Assembly (NCBI GenBank): GCA_027490215.1
Contig: JAIXYO010000030.1
Span: 1 to 64,000 of the forward strand
Direction: 5' to 3'
DNA: 64,000 nt
From: Rubrivivax sp.
GTDB lineage: Bacteria > Pseudomonadota > Gammaproteobacteria > Burkholderiales > Burkholderiaceae_C
The position numbers were made by a program, and so were the translations under genes. Each line of letters opens with the position of its first letter. The stretch's first letter is position 1. Below, one piece after another: positions 23,867 to 34,719 of this stretch. The notes under the pieces were generated by a model that was not told where the DNA came from, did not search any database, and worked only from the letters and a program-made list of their open reading frames with translations.

Positions 23867-24805
23867 TTGAACACGATGGCTGTGGTGATGGAACGGCCGG
23901 AGCAACTTGTGCTGAGCCGTTTGGACCTGACCGATGCCACCGATGAAGACGTCACGGTCGACATTGAATGGAGCGGTATCAGCACCGGTACCGAACGACT
24001 GTTGTGGACAGGGCGTATGCCCGCATTCCCTGGCATGGGCTATCCCCTGGTTCCAGGCTATGAGTCGGTCGGTCGCGTCATCGAAGCCGGCTCCACTTCG
24101 GGTCGCCTGATTGGGGAACGCGTGTTCGTCCCCGGCGCCAAGTGCTTCGGCGATGTGCGTGGATTGTTTGGCGGGGCGGCCGCACGTGTGGTGCTGCCAG
24201 GCGCCCGCACCATTCCGTTTGCAGAGCATCTGGCAGAGCAGGGTGTACTGCTGGCGCTCGCTGCCACGGCTTACCACGCACATTCCATCGAAGGCCTTTC
24301 ACAGCCGGACCTGATCATTGGTCACGGCGTGCTCGGTCGAATGATCGCCCGACTCGCAGTGGTGGCGGGCCGCACACCCACCGTGTGGGAAACCAATCCC
24401 ACACGTCGCGAGGGTGCCATGGGCTACGAGGTGGTCGATCCGTCCATCGACTCTCGCCGCAACTACCGCTGCATCTGCGATGTGAGCGGCGATTCTTCGC
24501 TGCTGGACACGTTGATTTCGCGCTTGGCAGCCGGCGGCGAAGTAGTGCTGGCCGGCTTCTACGACGAGCCACTGTCGTTTGTTTTTCCGCCAGCCTTCAT
24601 GCGTGAAGCGCGCATCCGCATCGCTGCGCAGTGGCTGCCCAGCGATTTGGTCGCGGTCAAGGATCTGGCTGAGTCGGGACGTTTGTCGCTGGACGGCCTG
24701 ATCACACACCGCTCAGACGCCATGCAGGCCAATTCCGCCTACCGCACGGCGTTTGGCGATCCGACGTGTTTGAAGATGATTTTGGACTGGAGATCTTGCC
24801 AATGA
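23867..24805 (+). CDS. bchC: Bacteriochlorophyllide a dehydrogenase BchC
   Basis: BchC, about 312 residues, the NAD-dependent dehydrogenase that oxidises 3-hydroxyethyl bacteriochlorophyllide a to bacteriochlorophyllide a. It is a medium-chain dehydrogenase-like protein: DIEWSGISTGTERLLWTG near the N-terminus, GYPLVPGYESVGRV, and a Rossmann motif LIIGHGVLGRMIARL. A TTG start at 23867 sits just after GGGGAGGCGAC and gives MNTMAVV, like known BchC N-termini. An ATG at 23876 is the alternative, with spacing longer than ideal. The stop overlaps bchX by 4 bp. Confidence 0.94.
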   Translation: MNTMAVVMERPEQLVLSRLDLTDATDEDVTVDIEWSGISTGTERLLWTGRMPAFPGMGYPLVPGYESVGRVIEAGSTSGRLIGERVFVPGAKCFGDVRGLFGGAAARVVLPGARTIPFAEHLAEQGVLLALAATAYHAHSIEGLSQPDLIIGHGVLGRMIARLAVVAGRTPTVWETNPTRREGAMGYEVVDPSIDSRRNYRCICDVSGDSSLLDTLISRLAAGGEVVLAGFYDEPLSFVFPPAFMREARIRIAAQWLPSDLVAVKDLAESGRLSLDGLITHRSDAMQANSAYRTAFGDPTCLKMILDWRSCQ

Positions 24806-25827
24806 GCACCACTGAATCGACGCTGGCTTCCGCCAAGGTGGCACCGGTGACCATCATGATGAAAGACCTGCGAAACGAAGCGGCAGTCGAGCCTGCTCCC
24901 GTGTCCACCAGCCCGGTGACGAAGGAAACGCAGATCATCGCGATCTACGGCAAGGGCGGGATCGGCAAGAGCTTCACGCTGGCCAACCTCAGTTACATGA
25001 TGGCGCAGCAGGGCAAGAAGGTGCTGCTGATCGGTTGCGACCCGAAGAGCGACACCACCAGCCTGCTGTTCGGTGGTCGCGCCTGCCCGACCATCATCGA
25101 AACGAGTTCCAAGAAGAAGTTGGCCGGCGAGGCGGTAGCGATCGGCGACGTCTGCTTCAAGCGAGATGGCGTCTACGCGATGGAGCTTGGTGGCCCTGAG
25201 GTCGGCCGAGGTTGCGGTGGGCGCGGGATCATCCACGGCTTCGAACTGCTCGAAAAGCTCGGCTTCCACGAGTGGGGCTTCGATTACGTGCTGCTCGACT
25301 TCCTGGGTGATGTGGTGTGCGGTGGCTTTGGTCTGCCGATCGCCCGCGACATGTGCCAGAAGGTCATCGTCGTTGCCAGCAATGACCTGCAAAGTCTGTA
25401 CGTTGCCAACAACGTCTGCAGCGCAGTCGAGTACTTCCGGAAGCTCGGCGGCAACGTCGGCGTGGCCGGAATGGTGATCAACCGCGACGACGGCACTGGC
25501 GAGGCCAAGGCCTTTGCCGAGCATGTCGGCATACCGGTCCTGTCGACGATTCCGGCGAACGACGACATCCGCCGCAAGAGCGCCAGCTACGAAATCATCG
25601 GCAGACCAGGCTCCGAATGGGGTCCGATGTTCGCTGAACTGGCAGAAAACGTCGGCACGTCGCTGCCGATGCGCCCGAAACCGATGTCGCAGGACGAGTT
25701 GCTTGGCTTGTTCTCGGCGTCTTCGGTCGGCCGTGATGTGGTGCTGGAACCCGCGACTCAGTTCGACATGTGTGGCAAGACCGAGAGCAAGAAAGAAACG
25801 CTCGAAGTCGTTTACGACGAAGTCTGA
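24802..25827 (+). CDS. bchX: Chlorophyllide reductase iron protein BchX
   Basis: BchX, 341 residues, the nitrogenase-iron-protein-like ATPase that feeds electrons to BchYZ, which reduces ring B of chlorophyllide a. P-loop GKGGIGKS (50-57), a switch region DFLGDVVCGGF with one cluster Cys, and GRGCGGRGII with the other. The N-terminal ~40 residues are a variable extension, common in BchX. ATGA overlap with bchC shows coupling; bchY follows after 13 bp. Confidence 0.96.
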   Translation: MSTTESTLASAKVAPVTIMMKDLRNEAAVEPAPVSTSPVTKETQIIAIYGKGGIGKSFTLANLSYMMAQQGKKVLLIGCDPKSDTTSLLFGGRACPTIIETSSKKKLAGEAVAIGDVCFKRDGVYAMELGGPEVGRGCGGRGIIHGFELLEKLGFHEWGFDYVLLDFLGDVVCGGFGLPIARDMCQKVIVVASNDLQSLYVANNVCSAVEYFRKLGGNVGVAGMVINRDDGTGEAKAFAEHVGIPVLSTIPANDDIRRKSASYEIIGRPGSEWGPMFAELAENVGTSLPMRPKPMSQDELLGLFSASSVGRDVVLEPATQFDMCGKTESKKETLEVVYDEV

Positions 25828-25840
25828 GCGGCTGCGCACC

Positions 25841-27430
25841 ATGTCTAAAACCATTCCGATCATCGCAGCGGCACAACCGGCGAACCCGGCGTCGCCCACG
25901 GCACCCGGCGTGCCCTCGACGACGCTCGACGGTGATGGCATGGGCTGTCACGCCGGTGGCGAACAGCTGCTCGCCGCCGCAAAGTCGGCCGGCAAGTCAG
26001 AAGTGCTCGATCAGTATGCGAAGGACTATCCGAAAGATCCCAAGGCAGGGCCGCACGACCAGCCGCAGAGCATGTGCCCGGCCTTCGGCTCGCTGCGGGT
26101 GGGTTTGCGGATGCGTCGCACTGCCACCATCTTGTCAGGCTCGGCCTGCTGCGTGTACGGCCTGACATTCACGTCGCATTTCTACGGTGCGAAGCGCAGC
26201 GTCGGCTACGTGCCGTTCACCTCCGAGTCGCTGGTCACCGGCAAGCTGTTCGAGGACATTCGCGAGGCCGTCCACAAGGAAGCCGACCCTGCGAAGTACG
26301 ACGCGATCGTCATCATCAACCTGTGCGTGCCGACAGCCAGCGGCGTTACGCTCAAGATCCTGACGAAGGACATCAATGGCGTGCGCATCATCGGTATCGA
26401 CGTGCCGGGATTTGGCGTCCCTACGCATGCCGAAGCCAAGGATGTGCTGGCCGGTGCGATGCTGAAGTACGCGCGCAGCGAAGTGCTGGCGGGGCCGGTA
26501 CAGGCGCCGCGTACAGGTCGTTCCGACAAGCCCACGATCGCGCTGCTCGGCGAGGTGTTCCCAGCCGACCCGGTGATCATCGGAATGATGCTGGAGCCCA
26601 TGGGCCTCGCAGCTGGCCCGGTCGTGCCGACCCGCGAATGGCGTGAGCTGTACGCAGCACTCGATTGCACCGCGGTTGCCGCGCTTCACCCTTTCTACAC
26701 GGCCAGCATCCGCGAGTTCGAAGCGGCAGGGCGGCCCATTGTGGGTTCGGCGCCTGTCGGCTACGACGGCACCGAAGCATGGTTGCAAGCCATCGGGCAG
26801 GCCACCAATACACCGCAGGAAAAGATCGACGCTGCGAAGAACCGCATGCTGCCAGCGATTCGCGGCGCGCTCTCCAAGATGCCGATCAAGGGACGCATCA
26901 CGCTCAGCGGCTACGAAGGCTCCGAGTTGCTGGTGGGCCGCCTGCTGGTCGAAAGCGGTGCCGACCTGCGCTATGTCGGCAGCGCCTGCCCACGCACAGC
27001 CTGGAACGAAGCCGACCTGCAATGGCTGGAATCCAAAGGCGTGCAGGTTCAGTTCCGCGCGTCGCTGGAGCAGGACCTGGCCGCGATCGCTGAGTACCAG
27101 CCCGATCTCGCTATCGGCACCACGCCGGTCGTGCAGTACGCCAAGGCGAAAAGCACCCCGGCGCTGTATTTCACCAACTTGATTTCAGCGCGTCCGTTGA
27201 TGGGCCCTGCAGGTGCCGGTTCGCTGGCCACCGTGATCAACGCTGCCATCGGCAACAAGGCCCGCTTCGACGAGATGAAGGAGTTCTTTGGCTCGGTGGG
27301 TGAGGGCCATTCCTCTGGTGTGTGGGAACCGGCGAATGGTGTGCCAAAGGATCGCCCCGAGTTCAAGGCTGACCAACGCCGCCAGGCTGAAAAGATGGCC
27401 AAGAAGCGCAAGGCCGAGGAGATGATCTGA
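25841..27430 (+). CDS. bchY: Chlorophyllide reductase subunit BchY
   Basis: BchY, 529 residues, the NifD-like subunit of the chlorophyllide a oxidoreductase catalytic complex. Conserved cysteines lie in [21 protein letters not shown] and [11 protein letters not shown]. The C-terminal part has [19 protein letters not shown] and ends in a Lys-rich tail. The start ATG at 25841 is the first after bchX; the frame stays open upstream inside bchX, but that stretch is not credible coding. The stop overlaps the bchZ start by one base (TGATG). Confidence 0.96.
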
Positions 27431-28908
27431 TGCTGGTGCTTGATCACGATCGCGCGGGAGGCTACTGGGGTGCCGTGTATGTCTTCACGGCCATCAAGGG
27501 TCTTCAGGTGGTCATCGATGGCCCGGTCGGTTGCGAGAACCTGCCGGTCACATCAGTGCTGCACTACACCGATGCGCTGCCGCCGCACGAGTTGCCGATC
27601 GTCGTGACCGGACTTGCTGAAGAGCAGCTCGGCCGAGAGGGCACTGAGGGCTCGATGCGCCGCGCGCATGCTGCGCTGGATCCTGATCTGCCTTCGGTGG
27701 TGGTCACGGGTTCAATCGCCGAAATGATCGGTGGTGGCGTCACGCCGTCAGGCACAAACATCCAGCGTTTCCTGCCACGCACGATTGACGAAGACCAGTG
27801 GCAATGCGCGAATCGCGCGATGTTCTGGCTTTGGAGCGAGTACGGCATGAAGAAAGTGCCGGCACGCAAGCCGTTCGCCGAACGGCCGGCCAGCGAGAAG
27901 CCGCGCGTCAACATCATTGGTCCGTGTTACGGCACGTTCAATTGCCCGAGCGATCTGGCTGAGATTCGCCGCCTGGTGCAGGGCATCGGCGCCGAAGTGA
28001 ACATGACCTTCCCGCTCGGCAGCCACCTGGCCGATGTGTCGAGGTTGGTCGAGGCCGACGTCAATATCTGCATGTACCGCGAATTCGGCCGCATGCTGTG
28101 CGAAGCGCTGGATCGCCCGTATCTGCAGGCGCCGATCGGCTTGCACAGCACGACCAAATTTCTACGCAAGCTGGGCGAGTTGCTGGGCCTGGACCCGGAG
28201 CCGTTCATCGAGCGCGAAAAGCACACCACGATCAAGCCGATCTGGGATCTCTGGCGCTCAGTGACCCAGGACTTCTTCGGCACCGCCAGTTTTGCGGTGG
28301 TCGCCAACGACACCTACACCCGTGGTATTCGGCACTTCCTCGAAGACGAGATGGGCTTGCCCTGCCAGTTCGCGGTGTCCCGCCTGCCGGGTGCCAAGAC
28401 GAACAACGAAGAAGTTCGCCAACTGGTGAAAGACAAGACGCCACTCGTGATGTACGGCAGCTACAACGAACGTATCTACCTCGCCGAATGCGGCGGTGGC
28501 TCGATGATGAAAGCCAGCTTCATCCCAGCCTCGTTTCCGCTGCCCATCATCCGCCGCCACACCGGCACGCCGTTCATGGGCTACTCCGGCGCGACCTACA
28601 TCGTGCAGGAGTTCTGTAACGCGCTGTTCGACGCGTTGTTCCACATCCTCCCGCTCGGGACTGACCTGGACCGCGTCGACCCGACACCGGCGCGCATCGA
28701 CGGCCAGCCACCGAGCCCCTGGGACGCGGACGCTCAGGAATTGCTCGATGAAATCGTACAGACCGAGCCGGTTCTGGTGCAGATCTCAGCTGCAAAAAGA
28801 CTGCGCGACCGCGCAGAACGAGATGCACGCCGAGCCGGGGAAGACCGAGTCACAGCCGCCCGGGTGGCGACGTCGCGTGACGCCATGCGGCAGGGAGAGC
28901 CGGCATGA
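27430..28908 (+). CDS. bchZ: Chlorophyllide reductase subunit BchZ
   Basis: BchZ, 492 residues, the NifK-like partner of BchY. Typical parts are [20 protein letters not shown] at the N-terminus, [20 protein letters not shown] with the cluster Cys, and [20 protein letters not shown]. The last ~50 residues are an Ala/Arg-rich helical tail. The ATG overlaps the bchY stop (TGATG) and its own stop overlaps a 44-codon ORF leading to pufB, so the bch and puf parts are joined in one transcript. Confidence 0.96.
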
Positions 28909-29039
28909 CGCCCAGCGCTACCGCGCTGTTGATGAATTCGTTCGGCCTGGCGCTGAACACACCGAATGTCGCGGCGCAGTGCCGCGGCTGCCTCCATCGC
29001 GCGGGCTCTGCGCGGTACCGGCCGAAAGGCCGTCCTTAA
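28905..29039 (+). CDS. Candidate small ORF between bchZ and pufB (pufQ position)
   Basis: A 44-residue ORF whose ATG overlaps the bchZ stop as ATGA and whose TAA lies against the pufB ribosome site (TAAGGAG). Codon third positions are mostly G or C, as in real genes here. The peptide has a mildly hydrophobic start ([13 protein letters not shown]), one CRGC motif and a basic end (RYRPKGRP). It has no membrane span and no similarity I can see to Rhodobacter PufQ, which occupies this position there. It could be a real small protein or only a leader that couples bchZ and pufB translation. Confidence 0.4.
29017..29033 (+). promoter_or_regulatory. Hairpin with GAAA tetraloop just upstream of pufB
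   Basis: CGGCC (29019-29023) and GGCCG (29028-29032) close a GAAA loop, a very stable RNA tetraloop. It ends 4 nt before the TAA that overlaps the pufB ribosome site. No U run follows, so it is unlikely to be a terminator; it could protect or process the puf mRNA 5' end. Confidence 0.4.
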
Positions 29040-29051
29040 GGAGTAAATCCT

Positions 29052-29198
29052 ATGGCTGAAAGAAAAGGCTCTATATCAGGCCTGTCCGATGAAGAGGCAC
29101 AGGAATTTCACAGATTCTGGGTGCAAGGCACGATCGCTTTTACTGCAGTTGCAGTGGTAGCGCATTTCTTGGTTTGGGCTTGGCGTCCTTGGCTCTGA
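29052..29198 (+). CDS. pufB: Light-harvesting complex 1 beta polypeptide
   Basis: PufB, 48 residues, an LH1 antenna beta chain. The sequence has [13 protein letters not shown] with the cytoplasmic-side His20, one membrane span, and [12 protein letters not shown] with bacteriochlorophyll-ligating His38. This is close to the Rubrivivax LH1 beta sequence as I remember it. The start at 29052 follows AAGGAG at good spacing. First gene of the puf operon, followed after 24 bp by an unusual beta-like ORF instead of pufA. Confidence 0.96.
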
Positions 29199-29222
29199 TT
29201 TGAATCCCGGAAGGGGAATGCT

Positions 29223-29447
29223 ATGGCTGATACAACGAATCTCTCTTTGCAGCAGATATTGAAGAACGACTCAAAAGCGTATCTCGGCATCTTTGCGGTG
29301 AGCTTTTGCTTGTTGTTGGTGGTTGCTCTGTGCGCGCAAGCGATGACATGGCAGTGGCGTTCCTGGTTGCCGGGTGCAGAGGCAGAGAAATCATTGATTG
29401 GCGGTGTTAAAGGTGCGGTATACACCTTTATGTCGCATTTACTTTAG
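29223..29447 (+). CDS. Beta-like small membrane protein between pufB and pufA
   Basis: A 74-residue protein with one membrane span (residues ~20-43), a strong ribosome site (GGAAGGGGA) and standard placement in the puf operon. Its centre aligns with LH1 beta: YLGIFAVSF against the FHxxF region, then AQAMTWQWRSWLPG against [12 protein letters not shown] of PufB. The two beta histidines correspond here to Leu21 and Gln39, so normal bacteriochlorophyll ligation is lost or altered. A 23-residue C-terminal extension (52-74) ends VYTFMSHLL. No such gene is present in the standard pufBALMC order known to me. It may be an LH1-associated subunit comparable in role to PufX, protein W or LH1 gamma; that is inference. 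Confidence 0.8.
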   Translation: MADTTNLSLQQILKNDSKAYLGIFAVSFCLLLVVALCAQAMTWQWRSWLPGAEAEKSLIGGVKGAVYTFMSHLL

Positions 29448-29457
29448 GAGTTTGACC

Positions 29458-29661
29458 ATGTGGAGAATTTGGCGTTTGTACGACCCGCTTCGTGCGATGG
29501 TTGTGCAAGGTATTTTCTTGTTCGGATTGGCAGCGATGATTCATCTGGTGCTGCTGAGCACGTCGACCTTCAACTGGCTCGACGGCGTAAACGCACGAGC
29601 CAAGGTAGCGCAGCAGACTGCTTCAATGCCTTCAGGCGTTACGTCACCCGTAGCGAAGTGA
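29458..29661 (+). CDS. pufA: Light-harvesting complex 1 alpha polypeptide
   Basis: PufA, 67 residues, an LH1 alpha chain. MWRIWRLYDPLRAM is the classic N-terminus, the span holds the ligand His29 (AMIHLVLLST), and FNWLDG follows at the periplasmic side with Trp40. The C-terminal extension of about 25 residues after NWLDG is Ala/Val/Lys-rich. The start has AGGAG upstream. Two hairpins follow before pufL. Confidence 0.96.
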   Translation: MWRIWRLYDPLRAMVVQGIFLFGLAAMIHLVLLSTSTFNWLDGVNARAKVAQQTASMPSGVTSPVAK

Positions 29662-29666
29662 CAGCG

Positions 29667-29716
29667 TCGGGCTTGAGCCCGAGGTGGACGAGGACCGGGC
29701 GCGAACCCGGCCTCGT
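29667..29716 (+). promoter_or_regulatory. pufA-pufL intercistronic RNA hairpins
   Basis: Two stem-loops lie in the 117-bp gap. The first is TCGGGCT/AGCCCGA (29667-29682). The second is larger: ACGAGG (688-693) with CCTCGT (711-716), and CCGGG (695-699) with CCCGG (706-710), one bulged A and a 6-nt loop. There is no U run. In Rhodobacter, hairpins at this place protect the pufBA mRNA 3' end and set the LH1 to reaction-centre ratio; the same role is likely here. Confidence 0.7.
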
Positions 29717-29778
29717 TTCCCAAACAGATATTCGCCTATGGCAACGTCGTATTGCCGAGGGCGCTTAGGAGTCGTTAT

Positions 29779-30603
29779 ATGGCCACGCTCAGTTTTGAAA
29801 GAAAGTACCGCATACGCGGGGGCACCCTTGTCGGAGGGGATCTGTTCGACTTCTGGGTGGGGCCCTTCTATGTGGGGTTTTTCGGAGTTACCACTGTATT
29901 TTTTACAGCGCTGGGTACCGCGTTGATACTCTGGGGCGCCGCACTCGGCGATACCTGGAATGTATGGCAAATCAACATCGCACCGCCCGATCTGAAATAC
30001 GGCCTGGGCTTCGCGCCTTTGCGCGAGGGAGGCCTTTGGCAGATCATTACTATTTGCGCCACCGGCGCATTCGTATCATGGGCGCTTCGAGAAGTTGAGA
30101 TCTGCCGAAAACTCGGTATGGGCCTTCATGTGCCTTTCGCGTTCTCCTTCGCAATATTCGCCTACGTCACACTGGTGATCATTCGACCTGTGTTGATGGG
30201 CGCCTGGGGCCATGGATTTCCTTACGGGATTCTGAGCCATCTAGATTGGGTATCGAACACAGGGTACCAATACCTTCACTTCCATTACAACCCGGCACAC
30301 ATGCTGGCCATCACCTTCTTCTTTACAACGTGTCTGGCTTTGTCGCTGCATGGCGCATTGGTGCTGTCGGCGACCAATCCCGCACCTGGCGAAACCGTCA
30401 GGGCGCCCGAACACGAAGACACCTTCTTCCGCGACACCATCGGTTACTCCATCGGTACCCTGGGCATCCATCGTCTCGGCTTGTTCCTGGCGCTTGCGGC
30501 TGTGTTCTGGAGCGCTGTCTGCATCGTGATCAGCGGCCCGTTCTGGACCCGGGGATGGCCCGAATGGTGGGGGTGGTGGCTGAACCTTCCCATCTGGCAT
30601 TGA
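29779..30603 (+). CDS. pufL: Photosynthetic reaction centre L subunit
   Basis: PufL, 274 residues, five membrane spans. Against the Rhodobacter numbering the sequence is shifted by one: His154 (accessory BChl), His174 (special pair), His191 and His231 (iron), and the quinone-site residues Glu213, Asp214 and Ser224 are all present. The start [11 protein letters not shown] at 29779 has TAGGAG upstream. pufM follows after 24 bp. Nothing in the sequence suggests loss of function. Confidence 0.98.
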
Positions 30604-30627
30604 TTCGCACGCACCAGGAGACACCAA

Positions 30628-31602
30628 ATGGCTGAATACCAGAACATCTTCACCGCGGTGCAGGCGGTTGGTCCGGTCCACCACGGCATCGAGCACAAGA
30701 CAGAAAGCACTCGCGACGGAGAGCCCTTCCTAGTCCACCTGATCGGGCGATTCGGCAATGCTCAGATCGGCCCGATCTACCTAGGCGCCCTAGGCGTGGC
30801 GTCGATATTTTTCGGCACGCTCGCATTCAACATCATGGGATTCAACATGCTGGCCTCAGTGAACTGGGATCCCATCCAGTTCGTTCGCCAATTGTTCTGG
30901 CTTGCGCTCGAACCGCCGGCTCCCAGCCACGGATTGGGGCTCGCTCCGTTGAATCAGGGAGGCTGGTGGCAAATCGCTGGCCTGTTCCTGACCGTCTCGA
31001 TCCTGCTGTGGTGGATGCGCACCTACCGGCGCGCTCGCGAACTGGGCATGGGAACGCACGTCGCCTGGGCCTTCTTGGCCCCGATCTGGTTATTCCTGGT
31101 GCTCGGCCTGTTCCGCCCTGTCCTGATGGGCAACTGGGGTGAGGCGGTGCCCTTTGGCATCTTCCCGCACCTCGACTGGACCGCAGCTTTCTCCATTCGC
31201 TACGGCAATCTTTTCTACAACCCGTTCCACATGCTGTCGATCGCCTTCCTGTATGGCTCGGCACTGCTTTTTGCGATGCACGGCGCGACGATCCTCGCGG
31301 TTAGTCGTTTCGGAGGCGAGCGCGAGATCGAGCAAATCACCGACCGCGGCACAGCCTCGGAACGGGCGGCGCTGTTCTGGCGGTGGACCATGGGCTTCAA
31401 CGCCACCATGGAGTCGATTCACCGTTGGGCATGGTGGTTTGCGGTGCTGACTCCAATCACTGGGGGCATCGGAATCCTGTTGACAGGCACGGTGGTAGAC
31501 AACTGGTATCTGTGGGCGGTCAAACACGGTGTAGCACCGATGTACCCGGCCGTATGGGCTCCCGTGATCGACCCCGCAACGCTGCAGGGAGTCAAGCCAT
31601 GA
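30628..31602 (+). CDS. pufM: Photosynthetic reaction centre M subunit
   Basis: PufM, 324 residues, five membrane spans. Cofactor ligands are present one position earlier than in Rhodobacter: His181 (accessory BChl), His201 (special pair), His218, Glu233 and His265 (non-haem iron). The C-terminal region after the last span is extended, as in species whose reaction centre carries a bound tetraheme cytochrome. ATGA overlap with pufC. Confidence 0.98.
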
Positions 31603-32684
31603 ACAGGAATTTCAAGATGACATTGCGCTTGCTCTTGCTGTCGGCGGCAGCACTGCTGGCCGGTTGTGAACGGCCGCCTATCGAAGTGGTTCAGCATGGC
31701 TACCGAGGTACGGCCATGGCAGAGGTCTATAACCCGCGCACGCTCGAGGCGCAGGCACCCTTGAATCAGGTTCCACCGGCAACCGCGCAGGCTACGCCTG
31801 GTGGCCCGGCCGCTTCGCTGGTGTACCAGAACGTGCAGGTGCTCAACGACTTGAGCGTAGGTGAGTTCTCCAGGCTCATGGTCTCGATGACGGCTTGGGT
31901 GTCTCCTGAGCAGGGCTGTACCTATTGCCACAACGCGGAGAACTTCGCGCTCGACGATAAGTACACCAAGGTTGTCGCGCGCAAGATGCTGCAGATGACT
32001 CGCAAGATCAACTCCGATTACAAGAGCCATGTGGCGGCGACCGGAGTGACCTGCTACACCTGTCACCGCGGCAATAACGTTCCCGCCAATGTCTGGTTCA
32101 AGGGGCCGACTGATCAGCCTACTGTGGGGCTGTTGGGGTACAGGGCAGGGCAGAACACCGTCTCGAAGGTGGCCAACGGATCGTCCTTGCCTGTGGACCC
32201 TTTCACACCGTTCCTGCTGGGATCAGAGGAAATCCGGGTCAACGGAGACACGGCCTTGCCGACCGGGAATAAGCAAACTATCAAGCAGACGGAGTGGACG
32301 TTCAGCCTGATGACCCACATGTCGACGGCACTGGGCGTGAATTGCACCTATTGCCACAATACCCGCTCAATGTCGACTTGGGAGACCAGCCCACCGCAGC
32401 GTGTAACGGCGTGGCACGGCATACGCATGGTGCGTGACCTGAACAACCAGTACATGGAGCCCATCTCCAACGTGTTCCCAGCGCACCGGTTAGGCCCGAC
32501 TGGCGACGTCGCGAAAGCCAATTGCCAGACCTGCCACCAAGGTGCGTACAAGCCACTCTATGGCGTCAGCATGCTGAAGGACTATCCAGAGTTGGCAGCC
32601 CAGCGTCCTTCGCTTGCACCGTCACCGGCCGAGGCGCCTGCAGCGGAAGCCGCGTCCAAATCGTTGGATGTTGCCGCCAAGTAG
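31599..32684 (+). CDS. pufC: Photosynthetic reaction centre tetraheme cytochrome c subunit
   Basis: PufC, 361 residues, the periplasmic lipoprotein that reduces the oxidised special pair. The signal peptide ends in lipobox LLAGC (Cys23). Four CxxCH haem sites are visible at residues 107-111, 152-156, 249-253 and 309-313, with Met ligands in nearby helices ([29 protein letters not shown]). The C-terminal tail is Ala/Pro-rich. Its haems would be attached by the Ccm system encoded 10 kb upstream. The start overlaps the pufM stop (ATGA); a terminator follows 24 bp after the stop. Confidence 0.97.
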
Positions 32685-32707
32685 GGAAAAGCCTATTCGA
32701 CAAGACT

Positions 32708-32731
32708 AAGGCGGCCCGCGGGCCGCCTTTT
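32708..32731 (+). terminator. Rho-independent terminator of the puf operon
   Basis: GGCGGCCC and GGGCCGCC form an 8-bp GC stem flanked by AA and TTTT. It lies 24 bp after the pufC stop and ends the crtEF-bchCXYZ-puf superoperon. Confidence 0.9.
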
Positions 32732-32754
32732 CATTTCGTGCTCGACAAGACAAT

Positions 32755-32782
32755 CTGTTTACATAATATACATAGTGTCTCT
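32755..32782. other. AT-rich element resembling a Xer/dif half-site
   Basis: On the minus strand it reads TGTATATTATGT followed by AAAC, preceded by a weakly matching arm. The central TGTATA and the first six bases of the XerD arm equal the dif consensus as I know it, but the XerC arm matches poorly. It also contains TGT-N11-ACA, one base short of a PpsR site. The rest of 32732-32958 shows no supported gene. Confidence 0.2.
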
Positions 32783-32958
32783 TTTATGGGGCGCGCTTGT
32801 CGGCGATACGCTAGCCGTGAGCCTGCAAAGCCAAGGGGTCGCAATCTCCTGTCTCACAGCCAATTTGGCACGCCATTCTGAACAAGCAGCGAGTTCCCAT
32901 CGGAGAGGTCCAACACATCAAGACGCTCGGCTGCTACCTCATCAGGTCCAACCGTCGC

Positions 32959-33153
32959 TCAATTGCTTTGATCAATGCGACGATCGTAGGCTAGGACATC
33001 AGCAGGCAAGTTGCCCAGAATGGGCTTGTCGAGCGGGCGGAAAACCTGGCCCTGCAGACGTGCGAGAGACTCCGATTTCTCCAAGGCTTGGAATACGACC
33101 TCTGGATGGGTCATCAGCACGAAGGGGTTGCTTCTGAGTTGGCTGGAATGCAT
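32959..33153 (-). CDS. Small hypothetical protein (64 residues)
   Basis: A 64-residue ORF starting at 33153 with AAGGAG seven bases upstream, an ideal ribosome site. The protein begins MHSSQLRSNPFVLMTHPEVV and contains a helix FQALEKSESLARLQ followed by FRPLDKPILG. It has no signal peptide or membrane span. The pattern NPFxLMxxPExV...RPLDKP reminds me of a small protein seen in other Burkholderiales, but I cannot name a family or function. It stands alone on the minus strand after the puf terminator. Confidence 0.65.
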   Translation of the reverse strand: MHSSQLRSNPFVLMTHPEVVFQALEKSESLARLQGQVFRPLDKPILGNLPADVLAYDRRIDQSN

Positions 33154-33229
33154 CGCGGACTCCTTGAATGGATGGAGCCACTGTAAATTCGCGCCATCTG
33201 CTGACAAGTCGTCCCGTCGCCATAAACAC

Positions 33230-33248
33230 TGTCAGAAGCCCGCTGACA
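33230..33248 (-). terminator. Possible terminator hairpin after the ankyrin gene
   Basis: TGTCAG and CTGACA form a 6-bp stem with a 7-nt loop, 34 bp beyond the ankyrin gene stop on the minus strand. The following bases are only partly U-rich. The spacer makes TGT-N13-ACA, so it is not a PpsR site. Confidence 0.35.
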
Positions 33249-33281
33249 AAACGTCACGTTGGAACTGGTGCGGCGACGGCA

Positions 33282-33932
33282 TCAGCGCAGCTGTACCAGC
33301 CGGCTGAGTTGATCGGCCAGCTGTTCGCGGCCGCGCTGTCGGGCGAATTCGACAGCGGTCAGACCGAGATCATTCTTCAGATCGACCTGGGCTCCCGCTG
33401 CCAGCAGCAAGTCGACGCAGGCTGAGGGGCCGTAGTCCGCCGCCATCATCAGCGGCGTCGTACCGTTGGGTGAACGGGCGTCAACCGTGGCGCCACGGGC
33501 CAGCAGCAGCTTCATCGGCGCTTCGTCGGGGGCGGTGGCGGCGTAATGCAAAGGCGTCCAGCCAGATCTGTTGACCGCGGCCCCGCGCTGCAGCAGACGC
33601 TGGACCAGAGCGCTCTGGCCACGCAGGCTGGCCATCATCAGCGCGGTTTCACCAGAGGAGTTGGTGGCCTCCAGTTGCAATCGATCGCTGGCGGCTAATG
33701 CGCCCGCGACCTCATACGACTCGATGAGCAGCGCCGCAATGATGCCAGGCTGGCCACTTTCATCGACCGTATTCGGGTCAAACCCGCGCTGAAGCAGCGC
33801 TTCGACAGTGTGGCGATGATCGCGTTTTATTGCGGTGACGAAATCGTCGTATGACCCGGCCATTGCGGGAGAAAGCAACGCAAAAACAAATAGATAGAAG
33901 ACACATCGAATGTAATTTCTACGATCGATCAT
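33282..33932 (-). CDS. Exported ankyrin-repeat protein
   Basis: A 216-residue protein with a signal peptide (CVFYLFVFALLSPAMA) and about five ankyrin repeats, for example SGETALMMASLRGQSALVQR, SGWTPLHYAATAPDEAP and NGTTPLMMAADYGPSACVDL. It probably acts in the periplasm through protein-protein contacts; the partner is unknown. The start at 33932 overlaps the tatD 3' end by 14 bp and puts the signal peptide near the N-terminus. Last gene of the mltG-tmk-holB-pilZ-tatD operon. Confidence 0.88.
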   Translation of the reverse strand: MIDRRNYIRCVFYLFVFALLSPAMAGSYDDFVTAIKRDHRHTVEALLQRGFDPNTVDESGQPGIIAALLIESYEVAGALAASDRLQLEATNSSGETALMMASLRGQSALVQRLLQRGAAVNRSGWTPLHYAATAPDEAPMKLLLARGATVDARSPNGTTPLMMAADYGPSACVDLLLAAGAQVDLKNDLGLTAVEFARQRGREQLADQLSRLVQLR

Positions 33933-34719
33933 CTGGTAACACCGGCTGGATCTTGAACAGAGACTCGAAATTGGCCGTGGTAACGCGGCCGATCTCCTCC
34001 ACGCAAACACCCTTCAGCTCGGCCATCTGTTTCGCCACCCACGGCAGCAGCGCAGGCGTGTTGGTCTTGCCGCGAAAGGGAGCCGGCGCCAGATAGGGAC
34101 TGTCGGTTTCGATCAGGCACCGGTCGAGTGGCACATAGCGCGCCACTTCCCGCAGATCCTGGGCATTCTTGAAGGTCAGGATGCCCGAAAACGAGATGTA
34201 GAAGCCCAGGTCGAGAGCCGCCCGGGCCACTTCCAGTGTTTCGGTGAAGCAGTGGAACACCCCACCGACCCGACGCTCGCCTTCAGCAGTCAGCACCTCG
34301 ATCGTGTCGCGCGACGCACTGCGGGTGTGGATCACCAGCGGCAGCCCCGTGCGGTGCGCAGCGCGAATGTGCACGCGAAAGCGCTCGCGCTGCCATTCCA
34401 TGTCGGCCTCAGAGCGGCCGTTCAATCGGTAGTAGTCAAGCCCGGTTTCGCCAAGTGCCACCACGCGCGGCAGCGCAGCGCGGCTGAGCAGGTCGTCGAG
34501 AGTCGGCTCCTGCACGCCCTCGTTGTCGGGGTGCACACCGATGCTGGCCCAGAAGTTGTCGTGTGCCAGCGCCAGCGCATGCACCCGATCGAACTCTTCC
34601 AGTGTGGTGCAGATGCAAAGCGCCCGCCCCACTCCACCCACCTGCATGTCGGCACGGATGTCCGCCAGCTTTTCCGCCAGTTCGGGGTAACTCAGATGAC
34701 AGTGAGAATCGACGTACAT
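33919..34719 (-). CDS. tatD: TatD family metal-dependent hydrolase
   Basis: A 266-residue TatD-type hydrolase (DNase/deoxyribonuclease-like TIM barrel). Metal ligands are visible in YVDSHCHLSY, ALGETGLDYY, LVIHTRSA, GGVFHCFTE and LIETDSPYLAP. It follows pilZ by 33 bp in the same direction, as often seen downstream of holB and pilZ. Cytosolic; exact substrate in vivo uncertain. Confidence 0.94.
   Translation of the reverse strand: MYVDSHCHLSYPELAEKLADIRADMQVGGVGRALCICTTLEEFDRVHALALAHDNFWASIGVHPDNEGVQEPTLDDLLSRAALPRVVALGETGLDYYRLNGRSEADMEWQRERFRVHIRAAHRTGLPLVIHTRSASRDTIEVLTAEGERRVGGVFHCFTETLEVARAALDLGFYISFSGILTFKNAQDLREVARYVPLDRCLIETDSPYLAPAPFRGKTNTPALLPWVAKQMAELKGVCVEEIGRVTTANFESLFKIQPVLPDDRS

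Follow-up and report, generated by a model that had tools for sequence, protein, structure and literature searches.

We analyzed a 64,000-nucleotide stretch of DNA from Rubrivivax sp. (contig JAIXYO010000030.1, here called the window) that carries a puf operon, encoding polypeptides of light-harvesting complex 1 (LH1) and of the reaction centre that it surrounds (together RC-LH1). Between pufB and pufA, which encode the LH1 beta and alpha polypeptides, lies an open reading frame (ORF) of 74 residues, ORF74, with short spacers on both sides. ORF74 behaves as a functional gene, conserved and under purifying selection, and sequence comparison identifies it as an ancient duplicate of LH1 beta of the long type, which has a C-terminal extension. 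The features of the locus are as follows, where the names bchZ, pufM and pufC are taken from sequence and position and lengths are in amino acids (aa).

27430-28908, + strand: bchZ, upstream of pufB; its C-terminal 200 residues were found in related loci.
29052-29198, + strand: pufB, short-type LH1 beta of 48 aa with both histidines (Pfam LHC E 5.4e-12; NCBIfam pufB 81.4 bits, cut-off 61).
29210-29217, + strand: ORF74 ribosome-binding site (gaagggga), read from the sequence.
29223-29447, + strand: ORF74, 74 aa, single-span, LH1-beta-like, without the beta histidines; ATG start.
29458-29661, + strand: pufA, LH1 alpha of 67 aa (Pfam LHC E 2.8e-11; NCBIfam pufA 61.8 bits, cut-off 35).
29658-29725, + strand: two strong hairpins 3′ of pufA (fold -35.9 kcal/mol, z -3.12).
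29779-30603, + strand: pufL, reaction-centre L (phmmer against PDB L chains, E 4.4e-157).
30628-31602, + strand: pufM, reaction-centre M, an ORF used as tblastn query for related operons.
31599-32684, + strand: pufC, reaction-centre cytochrome of 361 aa, an ORF with its start taken at MNRNFKM.

A preliminary description of this DNA, made from its letters alone, had proposed that a 74-residue single-span protein is encoded between pufB and pufA. A search of other Burkholderiales puf operons found homologues in the corresponding place. ORF74 occurs at 80-100% identity in 11 of 15 genomes of the genus, the window's own included, and 119 distinct operons have it, with an intact frame, in this position. 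The median ratio of non-synonymous to synonymous substitution rates (dN/dS) among eight members of the genus (28 pairs) was 0.096; pufB gave 0.08 (26 pairs) and pufA, over its first 51 codons, 0.14 (28 pairs). Seven alignment columns are invariant among 67 ORF74 sequences and 10 further columns are conserved in at least 90% of them. A frameshifted copy of an ordinary pufB or pufA, the alternative that the preliminary description had allowed for, was rejected on the intact frames and the dN/dS of 0.10.

Profile searches bore out the beta-like core that had been read from the sequence. A single ORF74 member matched LH1 beta chains of the PDB (best 8z81_B, E 2.9e-10), and a profile of 24 members matched 43 distinct chains at E<=10, of which 42 were antenna polypeptides (best 8z81_B, E 1.9e-16) and the sole exception a receptor at E 4.5. 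None of these matches is named an alpha chain, and several carry the ambiguous name "alpha/beta subunit." The alignment to 8z81_B spans profile positions 7-64, reaching the C-terminal extension. The PDB contains no close match for ORF74 (best 43.2 bits), for PufB of the window (best 64.3 bits) or for PufB of Rubrivivax (best 64.9 bits). When 123 distinct ORF74 sequences were compared with other families by hhalign, long-type PufB was matched over 75 columns with a probability (P) of 99.4 and an E of 1.8e-21, and short PufB with P 97.5; an alpha-like origin was rejected at P 3.6 with PufA. The long-beta set held 13 rows, one of which (L170) is actually a short beta with a mis-chosen start, and rows of a second beta-like gene, found upstream of pufB and discussed below, were excluded by hand from the ORF74 set. 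NCBIfam pufB was matched at E<=1 by 58 of 67 ORF74 members (best 1.9e-10) and Pfam LHC by 9 of 24 (best 4.4e-6); the window's own ORF74 falls below the curated cut-off of the former (NF040862; 17.8 vs. 61 bits) and has no match to the latter (PF00556). Homology to LH1 beta was thereby found along the membrane span. In a tree of 106 sequences (40 ORF74, thinned; 35 short and 18 long beta; 13 upstream genes), ORF74 (40/40), true beta (53/53) and the upstream gene (13/13) formed three separate clades with support of 0.95, 0.90, and 0.97. These comparisons indicate that ORF74 is related to beta and that the split predates its spread among the sampled operons.

Two other Pfam identities were considered. 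The window's ORF74 lies exactly at the cut-off of DMT_YdcZ (24.0 bits), a family to which 7 of 24 members have a match (best 1.2e-5); for DUF2567 the number is also 7 of 24 (best 6.5e-5). Although these scores are near those for LHC, both the YdcZ exporter and the DUF2567 identity were set aside because the PDB and family-profile comparisons favour antenna beta far more strongly. With a DMT_YdcZ match at the cut-off, automatic annotation could label ORF74 an exporter.

The residues that LH1 beta uses to bind pigment are lost in nearly all members of the family. At the inner histidine position (39), the 122 sequences compared (the 123 ORF74 rows minus L139, shortened by the choice of start) have Gln in 97, Thr in 7, Glu, Ala, Lys, Ser and Leu in 3 each, and Cys, Gly and His in 1 each. 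The outer position (21) precedes the inner one by 18 residues and has histidine in 4 of 122. The reading of the window's gene as a beta paralogue in which both bacteriochlorophyll ligands are missing therefore extends to the family, with profile homology to beta and not alpha. As to the suggestion that Gln may take over as ligand, it is the common residue at position 39 and could bind in many members; since the position varies across the family, a Mg ligand is not required in ORF74. Judged by these residues, ORF74 cannot hold bacteriochlorophyll in the fashion of beta. True beta has an N-terminal SGL..EF-H motif, whereas neither SGL nor E-x-H occurs in the N-terminal part of any of the 123 sequences. 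What is kept is the W-R-x-W-(L/F)-P-G-A-E belt (of 123 sequences, W45 in 122, R46 in 120, W48 in 115, P50 in 122, G51 in 123, A52 in 118, and E53 in 119) and a C-terminal stretch, VKxAVYTFMS, that is predicted to form a helix (V62 in 122, V66 in 120, Y67 in 117, M70 in 114, and S71 in 120).

The C-terminal part had been described as an added extension of 23 residues. It is instead homologous to the extension on the long-type PufB of related lineages, for example ...WLPGSGGYTSMIDGVKAAVNSFMPYVFMA in locus L161, and the 75 columns aligned with long beta include it. Long-type LH1 beta is 76-78 aa in Burkholderiales, and the long-type chains in the PDB (8z81_B, 7xxf_B, and 9m8m_B) are 67-75 aa. The Burkholderiales long beta has both histidines and the SGL motif and is the only beta found in its own puf operon, whereas ORF74 has neither and accompanies a short beta.

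A Pfam LHC search found antenna genes in 62 of 399 genomes of the family to which the window belongs, and their puf operons were read singly: 54 have a short PufB with ORF74, 7 have a long PufB without ORF74 and with pufA directly after it (G055, G073, G122, G161, G184, G185, and G214), and the remaining one (G128) has a short PufB without ORF74 and a beta-like gene upstream of pufB. In the order, 38 of 300 genomes matched an ORF74 profile, 35 of them outside the family; these comprise 27 with ORF74 (that of G458 weak and at a contig end), 5 with long PufB alone (G436, G570, G583, G655, and G684), and 3 with short PufB and the upstream gene (G475, G592, and G622). The sampled Burkholderiales operons fall into three types, with 81 of 97 carrying short PufB and ORF74 (one weak), 12 long PufB alone, and 4 short PufB and the upstream gene; none of the 97 combines long PufB with ORF74, has both accessory genes, or has a short PufB with neither. 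Because the order sample was found with the ORF74 profile, short-PufB operons without a partner would escape it, and only the family census is free of that limit; the genomes are also related, so that the counts are not independent events. On a poorly resolved tree of 120 PufL residues, operon type required 20 parsimony changes, compared with a mean of 27.4 and a minimum of 24 for shuffled labels (the tree's label for L220 disagrees with the reading of the locus and was not used). Genus g170 contains both long beta alone (L161-L163) and short beta with ORF74 (L150, L156, and L177), and would be a good place for studying the switch.

Beyond the order, sampling was thin: 7 of 274 genomes of the class matched (5 outside the order) and 14 of 299 of the phylum (11 outside the class), and in none of these 16 does ORF74 lie between pufB and pufA (in G706 and G1133 the matching region lacks puf genes). 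ORF74 also had no match in a protein search of plasmids. Among named genomes there were 327 relatives, and the best 80 of these 327, which were examined, include Rubrivivax gelatinosus DSM 1709, R. benzoatilyticus, Roseateles, Rivibacter, Piscinibacter, Paucibacter, and Ideonella. Puf operons with ORF74 that resemble those of Burkholderiales phototrophs (L066 and L084) also occur in metagenome bins under the titles Bordetella parapertussis and Methylotenera, and the bin names may be wrong. The replacement of long beta by short beta plus ORF74 is, at best, an exchange pattern limited to Burkholderiales, because in other lineages long beta is often found alongside the upstream gene, and certain operons lack both accessory genes.

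The upstream gene encodes a small, single-span, beta-like protein and, in several lineages of Pseudomonadota, occupies the pufQ position, with bchZ before it and pufB after it. In Thiodictyon syntrophicum it is annotated as a "hypothetical protein" (THSYN_RS31365), and in Methylobacterium aquaticum no gene is annotated there; among its loci are L171-L173, L190, L191, L207, L209-L214, L127 (= G128), L221, and L220:3986-4210. By hhalign it matches ORF74 with P 98.5 and long beta with P 98.2, while alpha is not matched. It resembles ORF74 in having mostly lost the inner histidine (L190 keeps a histidine) and in its conserved C-terminal stretch. It differs in lying 5′ of pufB, in its frequent PF(A/V)FMG-like ending, in having mostly lost the WRxWLPG belt, and in forming its own clade.

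The gene itself is not new. An ORF2 of "unknown function" upstream of pufA in Rubrivivax gelatinosus is attributed to Nagashima 1994 in a 2025 paper, which tested it as a source of the alpha gene pufA2 of Gemmatimonas and rejected the link (PMC12817894). In Roseateles depolymerans the frame is listed as ORF74, with no function assigned (PMC10037100). The window's gene has the same position, length (~74 aa), and homology, and is the same gene; it is present in our set in both R. gelatinosus DSM 1709 (L085) and R. depolymerans DSM 11813 (L107). The preliminary description was thus right about a beta paralogue and wrong in stating that no such gene was known: this is a real, conserved, previously listed gene. 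In the literature searched, which did not extend to the primary papers of 1994 and 2002, we found no statement of its likeness to beta and no experiment on its function. New here are its beta ancestry, distribution and exchange pattern, the extension shared with long beta, the three operon types of Burkholderiales, and the mostly ligand-free upstream gene, which also occurs in other Pseudomonadota.

Expression data exist for R. depolymerans, where pufA, pufB and ORF74 head the list of loci lowered in a sigma-factor mutant (0.71, 1.09, and 2.34% of transcripts left, respectively), show the greatest changes upon starvation, and are said to be co-transcribed on a major 1-kb puf transcript (PMC10037100). 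The two hairpins after pufA in the window fit the need of such a pufB-ORF74-pufA transcript, and by likeness to known puf operons they possibly form the 3′ end or stabilizer of this short mRNA. Predicted ribosome sites across the 119 distinct operons had medians of -7.6 kcal/mol for ORF74, -8.3 for pufB, and -7.3 for pufA, with no significant difference between ORF74 and pufB or pufA (Wilcoxon p 0.24 and 0.28); the ORF74 site was weaker than that of pufB in 67 of 119 operons and than that of pufA in 50 of 119. With ribosome sites roughly equal in strength to the pufB and pufA sites, ORF74 protein is likely supplied at near the LH1 level. In the window, the ribosome site of pufA (TAGGAG) overlaps the stop codon of ORF74.

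What might such a protein do? The reading that we tentatively rank as most likely is an accessory one, in which ORF74 helps to build or open the LH1 ring. The C-terminus of LH1 beta is periplasmic, and the helix of ORF74 would lie in the membrane with the same N-in/C-out orientation. Through the retained belt it could pack with LH1 alpha, taking the place of a beta, or stand at the reaction centre. Because it would bring no pigment, it might interrupt or nucleate the ring instead of extending it, and the pigment-free position so kept could aid assembly and quinone exchange. The predicted periplasmic C-terminal helix would then provide in trans the element that every beta has in cis in other lineages. 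The proposed role resembles that of PufX or protein W in one respect, namely that a helix without pigment would leave a gap in the LH1 ring. PufX is thought to be related to a cytochrome N-terminus and is encoded after pufM (PMC9640540), unlike ORF74, which is beta-related and lies between pufB and pufA; the PufX family (PF11511) was matched neither by the window's ORF74 at E<=10 nor by any of 24 members, and the window's genome has no PufX above cut-off. An identity with PufX was therefore rejected on both family match and gene position.

Several observations weigh against a role in the ring. Expression at the LH1 level exceeds the need of a one-copy ring-opening subunit, and the strong ribosome sites, like the related gene at the pufQ position elsewhere, weaken a simple analogy to PufX or protein W. 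With bchZ as control, partial correlations of rates over 61 loci were 0.29 between ORF74 and alpha, 0.32 with beta, and 0.38 with pufC, compared with 0.61 between alpha and beta, so that co-variation with alpha and beta is weak and has no preferred partner. As far as our survey goes, ORF74 is known at the level of gene and transcript and appears in no RC-LH1 preparation or structure. Outside Burkholderiales, the upstream gene occurs together with long beta in 11 loci (9 distinct), and neither accessory gene accompanies a short beta in L193, L215, and L216 or a long beta in L192 and L208. AlphaFold2 modelled ORF74 alone with helices at 4-48 and 59-73 at low confidence (mean predicted local distance difference test score 64.5, predicted template modelling score 0.33). 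Lastly, the position of the upstream gene before pufB and a borderline PufQ match in one of its members point to a regulator rather than a subunit.

This last point leads to the reading that ranks close behind, given the upstream relatives, and that we consider possible: ORF74 would be the Burkholderiales counterpart of PufQ, steering tetrapyrrole flux or delivering pigment during LH1 assembly while being absent from the finished complex. In Rba. sphaeroides, PufQ is reported to bind ferrochelatase and to control bacteriochlorophyll flux, and the conserved PufQ C-terminus is predicted to be cytoplasmic (PMC5725709). The C-terminus of a beta, in contrast, is periplasmic, which speaks against this reading. 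PufQ resembles ORF74 in being a small single-span protein of the puf operon, although its gene precedes pufB, a place shared with the upstream relatives of ORF74. In L214 the upstream gene has two matches below the cut-offs, one to NCBIfam pufB (E 0.0012) and one to Pfam PufQ (E 0.021), while the other upstream genes scanned match neither. Against a PufQ profile from five loci, ORF74 scored highest of five groups (P 22.8), followed by the upstream gene (7.5, and up to 9.2 in a further comparison), long beta (0.7), short beta (0.3), and alpha (0.1). None of these values is significant, so that the scores are suggestive at most, and Pfam PufQ (PF05398) is matched by none of 24 ORF74 members. The window's genome has no PufQ above cut-off, and ORF74, the upstream gene, and PufQ never occur two to a locus at >=24 bits among 218 loci with any match, a redundant set. 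Retention of the WRxWLPG belt, which the upstream genes have mostly lost, speaks against a PufQ-like role. The upstream gene could nonetheless be a missing link to PufQ. A broader view, which we hold to be rather unlikely, is that a pigment-free "pseudo-beta" derived from an early beta duplication is a general accessory of RC-LH1 biogenesis or gating, with ORF74 and the upstream gene as mutually replacing forms and PufQ as a far-diverged member.

A third polypeptide of LH1 in many copies, like the gamma of Blastochloris or the gamma-like polypeptide of Rhodopila, would fill gaps between beta helices, stiffen the ring and limit quinone pores. The mRNA shared with pufBA in Roseateles and the LH1-like ribosome sites would fit such a subunit, and the weak rate co-variation with alpha and beta would not. 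A stoichiometric third polypeptide would probably have been noticed in classical preparations of Rubrivivax LH1, and gamma polypeptides are not known to resemble beta. LH1 gamma is characterized by a very short helix between beta polypeptides in the purified complex, and its length differs (22 aa in Rhodopila vs. 74 aa for ORF74). A gamma-like ORF74 seems improbable. Hardly credible is that ORF74 is a pufB duplicate that evolves neutrally or decays, or an ordinary pufB or pufA copy with a frameshift. The loss of ligands and of the N-terminal motif would fit decay, but the low dN/dS, the conserved columns, the single clade, and the intact frames contradict it.

Some features around the operon deserve mention. 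Directly 5′ of the pufB ribosome site, window positions 28990-29056 form GC-rich hairpins, one of them GGCC-GAAA-GGCC (fold z -2.2), and a loose criterion, applied with no chance control, picks up short GC stems in 71 of 140 distinct pufB leaders; an Rfam scan of window positions 24000-34000 gave no match. A 44-aa frame at 28905-29039 shares four bases with the end of bchZ and is perhaps ORF1 of the Rubrivivax literature; in Rhodobacter, pufQ likewise overlaps the end of bchZ (PMC5725709). Beyond near relatives, conservation of the small frame that precedes pufB is unclear (a loose CxxC criterion picks it up in 26 of 88 loci), and its CRGCLxRAGSAR-like stretch is found in near relatives only. 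pufC is present in 75 of 80 loci; four have no room for it and one is missing pufM. A second antenna gene pair, probably pucBA of light-harvesting complex 2, lies on another contig of the same genome (C34:79759-80007; L003 and L004).

Most of the sampled Burkholderiales phototrophs carry, in their main photosynthesis operon, a gene that, going by the 1994 paper cited for it, has been left as an unknown ORF for about thirty years. The proposed exchange with the long-beta extension is clearly testable, and so is a possible link to PufQ. If ORF74 is a pigment-free beta, it would show an antenna subunit turning into an assembly or gating part, and would give a genetic handle on RC-LH1 assembly or quinone exchange in Burkholderiales phototrophs.
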